A stretch of 21,949 bases of DNA, taken from positions 1-21,949 of the IMG/VR virus record IMGVR_UViG_3300043436_001922; one strand, written 5' to 3'. The notes under the pieces were generated by a model. The model did no database searches. It saw nothing but the letters and a program-made list of their open reading frames with translations, and was not told the DNA's origin. The translations under genes and the position numbers were made by a program. Of this stretch, positions 7-13,889 are shown one piece after another (position 1 is the stretch's first letter; each line of letters opens with the position of its first letter). Source of the stretch: a virus.

Positions 7-897
7 TTACTTGTCCCCGCGGACCCGGACGAACACCGGGTGGCGGAGGGAACCGTTCGGGGTCTTCATCTGGAAGTCTACCTCGGCGGTCTGGCCGATG
101 AGCTGAGAGCGGTCGGCGAGCAGGGCGACGCGGGTGGCGTTGTCCATGCCGGTGCCGACATTGACGAGGCGGCGTCCGCAGCGCACGACGATGTGGCCCG
201 CCATCCCGGCGCACTTGCCCGTGCCTTCGACCACGTCCACGATCTCGGCGTCAGTGGTGTCGGCGTCCTTGACCTTGAGCCAAGCCCTGGAGCGGAGGCC
301 GTGGGAGTAGGGGGCGGCGGTGTCCTTGACCATGGCACCTTCGAAGCCTTCGGCGGTAAAGCGGAGAAAGGCTTCCTCTGGGGTGCAGGAGACGCTAGGG
401 ATGAGCAGGAGGGAGGTAGGGTAGGACTGAGCGAACAAAGCCTCCAGCGAGGCACGGCGGGTGCTGTAATCGCCCTCCACGGAGGGAAGGTCGAACAGCC
501 AGACGCAGGCATCGTCGGCAGACTGCTCGGAGCGGAGGGCACCGACCGAGGTGAAGAAGGACTTGCCGGACACGGCCTCGCCGTCGAGCAGCCATACGCC
601 GTCCTTGCCAGCCAGGAGGTCGAGCACCTCGTCGGCCAGATGGTCGAGGGAGGGCATCGGGTTGCCGTTGCGGGTCTCGAAGCGCACGACGCGGCGGGAT
701 AGGTCCGCAGTGATCAGGACGCGAAGGCCGTCGACCTTGGGCTCGCAGACATAGGACGCAGGCGTCTCGCCAGCATACAGGCGGGCCAGCATAGGCCCAC
801 GGCGAACCTTGGGCGAACGGCGCTTGGGCTGACGCGGGACCGCGTCCTCGAAGATTGAGAAGAACGCGGCAAGTACTGGGTCCTGTTGGCAGAGCAT
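7..897 (-). CDS. ATP-dependent DNA ligase
   Basis: Seals nicks in duplex DNA by adenylating itself on a lysine, passing AMP to the 5' phosphate and closing the nick. The 296-residue protein carries the nucleotidyltransferase motifs in order: EPKVDG at 52-57 with nucleophile K54, LDGE at 104-107, LFD at 134-136, EGAMVK at 186-191 and WLKVK at 206-210. The last 80 residues look like the OB-fold domain of small phage ligases. The ATG start has a clear AGGAG about 8 nt upstream on the minus strand, unlike most genes here. It is the only reverse-strand gene and is divergent from the tail operon. Its likely role is joining nicks left by replication and recombination. The length fits the minimal phage/viral ligase class, and the family call is firm. 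Confidence 0.93.
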   Translation of the reverse strand: MLCQQDPVLAAFFSIFEDAVPRQPKRRSPKVRRGPMLARLYAGETPASYVCEPKVDGLRVLITADLSRRVVRFETRNGNPMPSLDHLADEVLDLLAGKDGVWLLDGEAVSGKSFFTSVGALRSEQSADDACVWLFDLPSVEGDYSTRRASLEALFAQSYPTSLLLIPSVSCTPEEAFLRFTAEGFEGAMVKDTAAPYSHGLRSRAWLKVKDADTTDAEIVDVVEGTGKCAGMAGHIVVRCGRRLVNVGTGMDNATRVALLADRSQLIGQTAEVDFQMKTPNGSLRHPVFVRVRGDK

Positions 898-9265: not shown

Positions 9266-9397
9266 ATGATCACCCACCTCCTCGCCCTCCTCGTCGGCTT
9301 CGTAGCCGGTGCCCTCGTCTTCCGCAAGCACGCCGTCAAGGCCAGCGAGCTCGAAGCCAAAGGCCGTCAGGCTCTCGACGCCCTCAAAGGCAAGTAA
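9266..9397 (+). CDS. 43-residue single-pass membrane protein
   Basis: A tiny protein with one clear membrane helix (about residues 3-19, THLLALLVGFVAGALVF) followed by a basic, helical tail (RKHAVKASELEAKGRQALDALKGK). The ATG at 9266 is preferred because upstream in-frame residues are Pro/Ser/Arg noise overlapping the previous gene. It is one base from the previous stop and three bases from the GTG of the lipoprotein gene. Its position beside holin and spanin candidates suggests a role in membrane disruption or holin control, which is inference. Confidence 0.55.
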   Translation: MITHLLALLVGFVAGALVFRKHAVKASELEAKGRQALDALKGK

Positions 9398-9400
9398 GCC

Positions 9401-10150
9401 GTGCGCCTGCTTCTGGTCATCGCCGCCTTGGCCCTGACCGGGTGCAGCCTGTTCCGTTCGTCGCCTGCGGACGTTCCCCTGCCCAAGCAGCTGGACGCCC
9501 CGACGACTCCTTCGGTCGTCCAGACCCTAGGCAAAGACCTCGACAAGACGGATCACCGCGTCGCCGCGTCCCTCGTCGCTATCGAGCGCAACGCGACCAG
9601 CCCCAAGGTGGTCGTGGCCGAGTCCCGCCTAGCCCAGTCCTATCTACCCCAGCCCCCCGAGGCTGACGTCGCCTTTGCTATGGCCCGTGCCACCAAGGCC
9701 GACCCTATCGACTACGCCAAGCAGATGGAGTTCGGACGCAAACTCGCCACCGCCGTCAACCGTGCCTGGGAGAAGCTGGAAGCCGACCAAGCCGAAGCCA
9801 AGCGAGTCTCCGGCCTGAAGGACAAGCGTATCGAAGACCTGACCGCAGCGCTGAAGGAATCGGAAGAGTCGGCCAACAAGTCGCCCCTCCGCGTCTCCGC
9901 CGGCTTCTGCTTTCTCGCCGCCCTCGGCCTAGCCATCGTCGGCCAGTACCTCCGTGCGGGGGCCTGCGTGGCCCTTGGCGGCATCCTGATCGGCATCTCG
10001 ACCATACTGTCGTCTCCTTGGTTCATCTGGTCTCTGATTGCCACGGCTGTCGTCGTCTTGGGCCTAGGCGTCTGGGTGGTCTTCGATATGGCCCGGGACA
10101 AGGTAAACGCTAAACCTTCCGACGATGAGCAAGCCCCCCCGCAAGTCTGA
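9401..10150 (+). CDS. Spanin-like lipoprotein with three C-terminal membrane helices
   Basis: The 249-residue protein begins with a lipoprotein signal (MRLLLVIAALALTGC, lipobox LTGC with Cys15), followed by a Pro/Ser-rich start and a long helical, charged periplasmic region with a likely coiled coil (about 105-158). Three membrane helices follow at about 165-184, 186-204 and 206-228, then a charged cytoplasmic tail. An N-terminal lipid anchor plus C-terminal inner-membrane anchor is the design of u-spanins, which fuse inner and outer membranes in the last step of lysis. Known u-spanins usually have one C-terminal helix, so three is unusual. It starts at GTG, three bases after the previous stop, and overlaps the next gene by 26 bases. 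A structural membrane protein is the alternative. Confidence 0.55.
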   Translation: MRLLLVIAALALTGCSLFRSSPADVPLPKQLDAPTTPSVVQTLGKDLDKTDHRVAASLVAIERNATSPKVVVAESRLAQSYLPQPPEADVAFAMARATKADPIDYAKQMEFGRKLATAVNRAWEKLEADQAEAKRVSGLKDKRIEDLTAALKESEESANKSPLRVSAGFCFLAALGLAIVGQYLRAGACVALGGILIGISTILSSPWFIWSLIATAVVVLGLGVWVVFDMARDKVNAKPSDDEQAPPQV

Positions 10151-10442
10151 CCCGCCCGCGGTCAAGTACGCGGAGCCCCACTTCACCTTCCGCATCCTGG
10201 GCAAGGTCAAGCCCTCGCATAATCCTAACTGCAAGACGCCCTTCGGCTACTGCTGGAAAGGCTACGGAGACATCCACGTCGACCCTCGGCAGCCGGAGCA
10301 CGAGCTCATCGACACGGCAGTGCACGAGCTCATCCACGACACCTATCCTTTCCTAGACGAAGACGCGGTCGAGGCCGGAGCGACCCGCATCGCCGAAGCC
10401 CTGTGGCGCATTGGCTACCGCCGCACCGTCATCAACCCATGA
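10125..10442 (+). CDS. HELIH zinc metallopeptidase-like protein
   Basis: A 105-residue protein with a HExxH zinc motif (HELIH at 67-71) and acidic residues nearby (FLDEDAVEAG, 77-85), E83 being a possible third ligand. The surrounding order (GDIHVDPRQPEHELIDTAVH, then a helix ending EALWRIGYRR) resembles small phage metallopeptidase-like proteins I have seen annotated as hypothetical. There is no signal peptide, so it probably works in the cytoplasm; a cell-wall function is not supported. It begins inside the lipoprotein gene and ends by sharing ATGA with the holin gene. The substrate is unknown. Confidence 0.6.
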   Translation: MSKPPRKSDPPAVKYAEPHFTFRILGKVKPSHNPNCKTPFGYCWKGYGDIHVDPRQPEHELIDTAVHELIHDTYPFLDEDAVEAGATRIAEALWRIGYRRTVINP

Positions 10443-10822
10443 GCCCGCCCCCTCCGCCCATCAGCCCCGAGGACATCCCGAAGGAACTCAAGGACGGCGT
10501 CGTCGCGTCAGTCCTTGGCGGCCTCGCCATGACGGCCCGCCTTCTGCTGTCGACCGAACCTGTGTCCCTGGGCTGGGTCGTGCGCCGTGTCCTCGCCGCC
10601 GCAATCACTGCGGCCTTGGTCGGCTACGGCATCCAAGAGCATATCCAAAGCCCGGGCCTGAAGATGGCCGTCGTCGGTGCGGCTGGTTACGCGGCCCCCG
10701 AATGCCTGGACTACCTGATGCGGTACATCAAGGCCCGCGGAGAGAAGGAAGTCGGAGCGGTCACCGCCAAACTCAAACCCCATGGGAAAGGCAAAGCCAG
10801 CAAAGCAAAGCGGAAGCGATAA
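10439..10822 (+). CDS. Putative holin (superfamily III-like)
   Basis: A 127-residue membrane protein: a proline-rich N-terminus, helices at about 19-37, 47-65 and 73-88, then a basic, lysine-rich tail (KLKPHGKGKASKAKRKR). The third helix carries a GAAGYAAPECLDYL pattern resembling the G-x-x-G-x-E-x-x-D segment of LydA/holin superfamily III proteins. Holins form inner-membrane holes that time lysis. ATG at 10439 overlaps the previous stop (ATGA), showing translational coupling. The next gene starts inside this one, overlapping its basic tail. The holin role is likely but rests on topology and a weak motif match. Confidence 0.7.
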   Translation: MSPPPPPISPEDIPKELKDGVVASVLGGLAMTARLLLSTEPVSLGWVVRRVLAAAITAALVGYGIQEHIQSPGLKMAVVGAAGYAAPECLDYLMRYIKARGEKEVGAVTAKLKPHGKGKASKAKRKR

Positions 10823-11108
10823 CCTCCTGCTGGCCGTCACGCTGCTCACCGGCTTCGCGGGAGTGTCCGCCTTTGCGTCCGCCTACATCGCCGGGTACGT
10901 CCTCGACCAACTGCAATCCACCGACGCCCTGGTCATGATCGTGACGGACGCGGGCCTGAAGTCCGACTCTGCCGACCTCGAGCGCAACATGAGCACGGCG
11001 ACGATGGCCCTGCGGTCAGTCCGCGACCTAGGTTGGGCCTTGGCCGTGGGGTGCTTAGGGGTAGGGGTGGCGGTCTTCTTACGCTCCCGCCGTCAAAACG
11101 CCTCCTAG
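10782..11108 (+). CDS. Two-helix membrane protein, possible antiholin or pinholin partner
   Basis: A 108-residue protein with an N-terminal basic stretch (MGKAKPAKQ), a membrane helix at about 15-40, a polar loop (about 48-80) and a second helix at about 82-101 ending in FLRSRRQNAS. Both termini are positively charged, which places them in the cytoplasm with the loop outside. It overlaps the holin gene by 41 bases in another frame, so the two are produced together. The pairing suggests a holin modulator, but no family motif confirms it. Three GGGG runs lie in its last part (11048-11067). Confidence 0.55.
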   Translation: MGKAKPAKQSGSDNLLLAVTLLTGFAGVSAFASAYIAGYVLDQLQSTDALVMIVTDAGLKSDSADLERNMSTATMALRSVRDLGWALAVGCLGVGVAVFLRSRRQNAS

Positions 11109-13240: not shown

Positions 13241-13440
13241 GCGACCTAGAACTGACGATGATGCGACGCGTCGGCGAACTGAACAAGGAAGTCGCCCGCC
13301 TCAAGGCCGAGGTCGAGAGGCTGACCAAGGCAGGGGATGCGATGGCAGATGAGCTCATTCGACTTGAAGCGGCATTTAATAATATTGAGTCAGCAGAGGC
13401 TCAAATGTGGTACATCGCGAAGGAAGGAGGATGCCCGTGA
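13237..13440 (+). CDS. Short coiled-coil protein
   Basis: A 67-residue helical protein with heptad-like spacing (LNKEVARLKAEVERLTKAG, about 14-32) and a second helix with MADELIRLEAAFNNIESAE. It has no enzymatic motif and is likely to oligomerise. It starts inside the stop of the previous gene and ends overlapping the GTG of the lysozyme-like gene. The AAGGAGG that serves that next gene lies within its own last codons. Confidence 0.55.
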   Translation: MSDLELTMMRRVGELNKEVARLKAEVERLTKAGDAMADELIRLEAAFNNIESAEAQMWYIAKEGGCP

Positions 13441-13889
13441 CCCTCAACCAACGCTTCTCCATCGTCGCCCTGCTGCTCCTCGGGCTCAACGCCCAGGCCA
13501 AGACCGACGCCGCCTTCCTCGAGGCCGTCGCCGAGGTCGAGTCCGGCATGAACCGCAAGGCCATCGGCAAGGCCGGCGAGCGGGGAATGTATCAGGTCGG
13601 CAAGGCCGCTTGGGACGACGCCTCCGCCCGCCTCAAGGCCGAGGGCCACTACGCCTTCCCCTGGTCTAAGTGGCGCGACGCTACGGCGCAGGACATGGTA
13701 GCCGCGTCCCACCTCCGCTGGATCAGGGCGAACTTCCACCGCGTCGGCATGACCGACCCGACCCCCGAACAGATGGCGCTCGTCTGGAATGTCGGATGGA
13801 CCGCCGCCCGCTCCCAAGGCTTCCGGGCGAACGGCTACGCTTTCCGCGTGGCCAACCTTTTCCGCTTGTCCTCGGCCAAGCCACGATAA
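13437..13889 (+). CDS. Secreted lysozyme-like lytic transglycosylase (endolysin candidate)
   Basis: Cuts peptidoglycan glycan strands. With GTG 13437 as start the protein has 150 residues: a Sec signal peptide (basic start MTLNQRFS, hydrophobic core IVALLLLGL, cleavage after AQA at 21), then an SLT-like domain. Motifs are AEVESG with catalytic candidate E35, GERGMYQV (47-54) matching the G-x-x-G-[LM]-x-Q-V signature, and ALVWNVGW (114-121) in place of the usual A-x-Y-N-A-G. AAGGAGG at 13424-13430 favours the GTG start over the in-frame ATG at 13431, which lies immediately after it. The gene is about 2.6 kb away from the holin group. A virion-associated muralytic role is possible, but the signal peptide suggests export during lysis. 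Confidence 0.78.
   Translation: MTLNQRFSIVALLLLGLNAQAKTDAAFLEAVAEVESGMNRKAIGKAGERGMYQVGKAAWDDASARLKAEGHYAFPWSKWRDATAQDMVAASHLRWIRANFHRVGMTDPTPEQMALVWNVGWTAARSQGFRANGYAFRVANLFRLSSAKPR

Follow-up and report, generated by a model that had tools for sequence, protein, structure and literature searches.

A spanin-like phage protein with a lipobox and three predicted C-terminal membrane helices

Spanins are the proteins with which phages break through the outer membrane of the host cell. Unimolecular spanins (u-spanins) combine an outer-membrane lipoprotein signal with a C-terminal transmembrane domain, and the survey PMC6139136 gives 58 of them from 677 genomes, in 13 families; its threshold for sequence homology is 40% identity across 40% of the periplasmic sequence. 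According to the same survey, periplasmic cysteine occurs in 0 of the 58 proteins, the periplasmic domain of T1 gp11 is predicted to be beta-rich, and Colwellia phage 9A is listed as a u-spanin singleton (PMC6139136). The survey adds that it left other topologies out of account (PMC6139136), and in PMC7830690 the one transmembrane domain of u-spanins, N-out/C-in, is described as an anchor only. Among the spanin papers listed in literature searches, judged by titles and the openings of abstracts, none is about a three-helix spanin. Here we describe a spanin-like protein of 249 amino acids, together with its lysis cassette, its relatives and the possible readings of its function. It is encoded in a possibly incomplete virus record 21,949 bases long (IMG/VR record IMGVR_UViG_3300043436_001922), which was analysed at its full length and is called the window below.

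Gene layout and predicted protein

The open reading frame occupies plus-strand positions 9401-10150, has a GTG start codon and lies among the following features.

9266-9397, plus strand: 43-aa protein with a single transmembrane helix, phrog_3879 (function unknown); its stop lies 3 nt before the spanin-like gene
9401-9445, plus strand: signal and lipobox of the spanin-like protein; GTG start, lipoprotein signal peptide, L12-T13-G14, Cys15
9446-9880, plus strand: predicted periplasmic region; Pro-rich linker 16-36, all-helical part 37-159 (AlphaFold), free of Cys
9884-10084, plus strand: three membrane helices, predicted from hydrophobicity and the model; pLDDT 52-61 for TM1-TM2
10085-10150, plus strand: C-terminal tail and stop codon; short, charged, predicted cytoplasmic
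10125-10442, plus strand: 105-aa HExxH (HELIH) metallopeptidase-like protein; weak library matches only
10439-10822, plus strand: holin (superfamily III / LydA-like); phrog_6384 holin, E 2.7e-6
10782-11108, plus strand: 108-aa protein, two hydrophobic helices; its reading frame differs from that of the holin gene, which it overlaps
13431-13889, plus strand: lytic transglycosylase of the SLT type, hydrophobic segment at the N-terminus; 25.1 bits to Pfam SLT (cut-off 21.3), scored on the frame from 13407

The HExxH gene begins before the spanin-like gene has ended, and its own stop codon shares the sequence ATGA with the start codon of the holin. From such overlaps we infer that the five genes of 9266-11108 form one group with coupled translation. 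The holin is identified by PHROG holin families and by Pfam matches in its relatives: phrog_6384 is matched by 17 of 21 relatives and Pfam Phage_holin_3_3 by 10 of 21 (E<=0.01), the window holin's own Pfam match being 16.3 bits and below the cut-off of 28.4. A preliminary description of this DNA had put the spanin-like gene next to the holin; the lysis group is confirmed, direct adjacency is not, since the 105-aa HExxH gene (10125-10442) lies between the two. The transglycosylase at 13431-13889 is, from its sequence, likely the endolysin, and one may guess at an antiholin or accessory lysis protein in the 108-aa protein with two helices.

Three minor observations concern the other genes. The HExxH protein in the cassette is zinc-peptidase-like and keeps its HExxH motif in 14 of 14 diverse variants, and the 43-aa protein consists of one transmembrane helix with a basic C-terminal tail. 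A gene on the opposite strand (window 7-897, minus) matches ATP-dependent DNA ligases with a best E of 1.3e-21, below curated cut-offs.

The signal peptide of the spanin-like protein is MRLLLVIAALALTGC; the lipobox is LTGC with Cys15, and Ser occupies position +2. C-terminal hydrophobic peaks begin at residues 163, 186 and 209. An AlphaFold model from 32 aligned sequences (mean pLDDT 67.8, pTM 0.36) contains helices at 37-63, 68-81, 87-99, 102-159, 162-179, 184-202 and 206-235, with block-mean pLDDT of 75-88 over residues 41-80, 74-83 over 81-140, 71 over 141-150, 59 over 151-160, 52-61 over 161-210 (TM1 and TM2) and 73-76 over 211-230. A model built before it on 28 close sequences placed the helices similarly but scored lower (pLDDT 54.7). 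A helical region of about 145 residues is predicted, in which the 58-residue helix 102-159 would reach up to the first membrane helix; the hydrophobic part of the third membrane helix stops near residue 228. The lipobox, the long helical middle (37-159, at moderate confidence) and the three C-terminal membrane helices named in the preliminary description are thus all recovered. When ORFs of at least 40 aa with a hydrophobic segment and no charge in the nine residues before Cys were scanned on both strands of the 21.9-kb window, which may be a partial genome, no second lipobox candidate was found. The predicted layout looks like that of a protein with a lipid anchor in the outer membrane and three helices in the inner membrane.

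Family and neighbourhood conservation

Scans of IMG/VR with family queries reported 202, 214, 31, 32 and 194 relatives in overlapping sets, from each of which the best 80 at most were taken. The 318 loci, the window included, all carry the family gene, as expected from retrieval by family. Removal of identical genes left 180, of which 172 are complete; the 8 truncated genes were left out. The family in metagenomic phages thus amounts to at least 180 distinct genes, one of them on a contig of an Opitutae MAG.

All 172 complete distinct relatives have the lipidation Cys under a permissive pattern. The strict lipobox [LVI][ASTVI][GAS]C is present in 139, and M, T, G or A stands at -3 in 33; the contig of one of the 172 (L134) begins at this point, which leaves no start within range. 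Position +2 is occupied by S (88), K (59), A (19), T (3), G (1), V (1) or E (1), and by D in 0 of 172. Three C-terminal hydrophobic peaks occur in 143 of 172 relatives at KD>=1.4, the other 29 having two, and in all 172 at KD>=1.0. Loops, tail and TM segments of the relatives were delimited by the numbering of the window protein. In loop 1, K/R is found in 172/172 and D/E in none; in loop 2, D/E is found in 96.5% and K/R in 1.7% (n=172); in the tail, K/R is found in 99.4% (n=172). Loop 2 of the window protein itself has no acidic residue. A charge falls inside TM1 in 3/172, and Cys over residues 16-158 in 0/172. By the positive-inside rule, the loop and tail charges agree with an N-terminal part in the periplasm and a C-terminus in the cytoplasm. 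As predicted from these sequences, this is a large family without assigned function, with a common layout of lipobox, helical part and three C-terminal helices.

No family in Pfam, NCBIfam or PHROGs fits the window protein: its best Pfam match is DUF4229 (17.6 bits, cut-off 27), its best PHROG match has E 0.072, and NCBIfam gave none at E<=0.1. Among the relatives, Rz-like phrog_812 matches 9/28 members (best E 0.00086), and phrog_37737 (58 positions, function unknown) matches 19/28 (best E 1.1e-4) and, when isolated C-terminal parts are used, 9/20 (best 6.5e-5), covering part of the membrane region. Pfam Phage_holin_3_6 is matched by 12/32 members (best 3.8e-6) and XhlA by 4/32 (best 2.4e-5), both over helix and TM; when ten members were rescanned all Pfam holin and XhlA bits were below curated cut-offs, the best-scoring Phage_holin_3_6 member lying outside the ten. 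The Slp outer-membrane lipoprotein model is matched by 3/32 (best 0.019) and Rz1-like LysC by 1/32 (0.043). The Rz-like, holin, XhlA, Slp and LysC matches were rejected as homology and judged to reflect coiled-coil, TM or signal-peptide likeness. A PADLOC match to Cas11e (E 0.0034) was dismissed as weak and implausible.

In tblastn against 50,697 annotated phage records, a set from which records very near the window may be excluded, the window protein found nothing at E<=0.01, and the 43-aa, HExxH and holin proteins found no match in annotated phage records. Of three diverse members of the family searched in the phage records, L049 matched only mycobacteriophage DNA polymerases (E about 1, attributed to chance), L214 matched nothing at E<=1, and the one match of L213, to phage 9A (E 0.6), is not trusted. 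In PDB, a Foldseek search found no match at E<=0.001 and a sequence search none below E 0.59. Two uncharacterized proteins of uncultured Caudovirales phages were found by Foldseek: A0A6J5MZD0 (E 2.8e-13, 39% identity) is likely a member of the family, and A0A6J5MD62 (E 9.7e-4, 20%, TM-score about 0.25) is a possible one.

In 159/159 loci with at least 1 kb of downstream sequence the holin follows on the same strand, with a median gap of 214 nt between the open frames of lipoprotein and holin (5-95% range 31-450). Among loci with enough flank, the HExxH protein is present in 153/164, the 43-aa protein precedes the lipoprotein in 153/169, a tail-fibre gene lies upstream in 149/160, the two-TM protein lies near on the same strand in 114/151 and the transglycosylase is found in 64/103. 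A reverse search from two holin profiles, one of them represented by its best 80 of 249, fetched 150 new loci, 91 of which were distinct with at least 2 kb upstream; the lipoprotein is within 1.5 kb in 91/91, and among these 91 no locus has a homologous holin beside another spanin. The counts 159/159 and 91/91 are not independent, as both come from the same collection with many shared contigs and the holin profiles were made from lipoprotein-bearing loci. With the HExxH protein as query, the lipoprotein was present in 27/27 loci fetched. Homologues without the lipidation Cys or outside lysis groups, which the preliminary description had named as evidence against a spanin, were sought among the complete relatives and in both sets of loci with enough flank, and none was found.

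Comparison with known spanins

The contrast with single-helix u-spanins drawn in the preliminary description holds for the phages compared: of six listed phages scanned, T1 (gp11), 9A, SIO1 and ICP2 have a protein or candidate with a single C-terminal helix, and 11b and VpV262 gave no trusted u-spanin candidate in the scan. The gene assignments for 9A, SIO1 and ICP2 were made here; ICP2 is NC_015158, and the Haiti isolate is the one listed in PMC6139136. We infer that the 9A singleton is the lipoprotein gene beside the 9A lysozyme gene. Profile comparison covered T1 gp11 and the 9A protein: T1 gp11 gave an hhalign probability of 1.3% with 12 columns aligned, and the 9A protein gave 64%, with similarity confined to about the first 35 residues (signal and linker).

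The u-spanin features of a lipobox, a C-terminal TM anchor (three helices, not one), a place in a lysis cassette and the absence of periplasmic Cys are all found in the spanin-like protein. It has them in common with T1 gp11, as it does coding by a single gene and the predicted N-out/C-in orientation. T1 gp11 differs in having one helix and a predicted beta-rich domain, whereas the present protein has three helices and is all-alpha in a model of moderate confidence; with no sequence homology either, membership in the T1 gp11 sequence family was rejected. The 9A lipoprotein likewise has a lipobox, adjoins a lysis gene and shows the weak likeness in signal and linker, but it has 161 aa and one C-terminal helix and resembles the window protein nowhere past signal peptide and linker. 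Rz/Rz1 offers a helical periplasmic part (Rz) and a lipid anchor (Rz1), and some members of the family have weak Rz-like PHROG matches; unlike Rz/Rz1, however, the present protein is a single polypeptide with both anchors, in reversed order and without periplasmic Cys. A two-component Rz/Rz1 spanin was rejected, since a single gene carries both anchors and no other lipobox candidate was found in the 21.9-kb window, itself perhaps only a piece of the genome.

Proposed function, alternatives and module exchange

Among genome contigs one relative was found, on the Opitutae MAG contig, and a search of 372 genomes of that MAG's order found only the same place. An Opitutae-order host for the window phage is only suggested by this, mis-binning being possible. 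Omp85 is present in 34/35 genomes of the order, and such hosts are therefore diderm. LolA was found in 2/35 genomes, 1 of them over the cut-off (completeness of the genomes unstated; control positive in E. coli, Caulobacter and others), so that outer-membrane sorting cannot be assumed; the +2 sorting rule of E. coli may not apply to such hosts. Lipoprotein transport to the outer membrane in the Opitutae order may use diverged or other carriers.

On balance we favour an alpha-helical protein, anchored by three helices, that works like a unimolecular spanin, and regard this as fairly probable. After export the protein would be lipidated on Cys15, and its N-terminus would pass to the outer membrane, the three C-terminal helices remaining in the inner membrane. 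Pro-rich linker and helical region would then cross the peptidoglycan mesh and tether both membranes; after triggering of the holin and cutting of the wall, the tethers would gather and, as the published model for spanins has it, fold back, fusing the two membranes. By layout and context the protein would work like a u-spanin, outside the T1 sequence family and as a candidate for the functional class, and it may represent a variant membrane-fusion class, as the preliminary description had proposed. If so, the three-helix anchor and helical periplasmic part would widen the rules by which spanins are searched for, a lysis function would be suggested for a family of uncharacterized phage proteins, and the family would provide a naturally occurring case for testing if the anchor of u-spanins is passive.

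A different role would follow if the lipid were retained in the inner membrane, which would make an antiholin-like holin regulator more likely. Its lipidated N-terminus would stay in that membrane and its periplasmic helices would sense or bind the holin and set the lysis time, in the manner of RI of T4; the pairing of the two genes would then reflect a complex. We consider this unlikely. The linkage of 159/159 and 91/91, the match of some members to holin-like Pfam models and the scarcity of LolA (2/35, 1 over the cut-off), which makes such retention possible, agree with it, but a lipid seems redundant beside three TM helices in the same membrane, yet Cys is kept in 172/172. Moreover, a relationship of the TM part to the cassette holin was rejected as unsupported, profile comparison giving no similarity (hhalign probability 0.2%), and a second candidate for an antiholin exists in the two-TM protein, whose gene overlaps that of the holin. 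Still less likely is a late superinfection-exclusion or other envelope lipoprotein unrelated to lysis: phage lipoproteins of the superinfection-exclusion type exist, but the gene sits in the lysis cassette in the loci tested. Least probable is the o-spanin-like half of a two-component spanin with the 43-aa TM protein or the two-TM protein as partner. Both candidates are membrane proteins of the cassette (153/169 and 114/151 loci), but, judged by eye, the 43-aa protein has charges that would place its C-terminus in the cytoplasm, and a free periplasmic C-terminus is missing from the two-TM protein; by this placement neither looks like an i-spanin, and the lipoprotein has inner-membrane helices of its own.

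The favoured spanin-like reading could be carried further, to a single-chain, all-helical spanin class whose three-helix anchor couples physically to the constant holin partner, one complex triggering both permeabilisation of the inner membrane and membrane fusion; we regard this as doubtful. If true, interchangeable periplasmic and membrane modules would let a phage tune either half.

When the 172 genes were clustered greedily at 55% and 50% identity, the periplasmic parts fell into 5 types and the C-terminal parts into 6, and 14 pairings of the two occur. With L004 the window protein is 93% identical in the periplasmic part and 35% in the membrane part, and its membrane type is common only to L002 and L082 among the 172. 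From these comparisons periplasmic and membrane modules are shuffled between phages, the predicted layout of lipid, helical spacer and three helices staying the same. For the membrane part dN/dS is 0.37-1.38 with one value undefined, in pairs of different types that are near saturation and little informative. For the periplasmic part, over 16 pairs, it is 0.05-0.32 against the 13 relatives that share the window's periplasmic type, which shows purifying selection on this part of the window protein, and 0.53-0.66 against the three relatives whose type differs.
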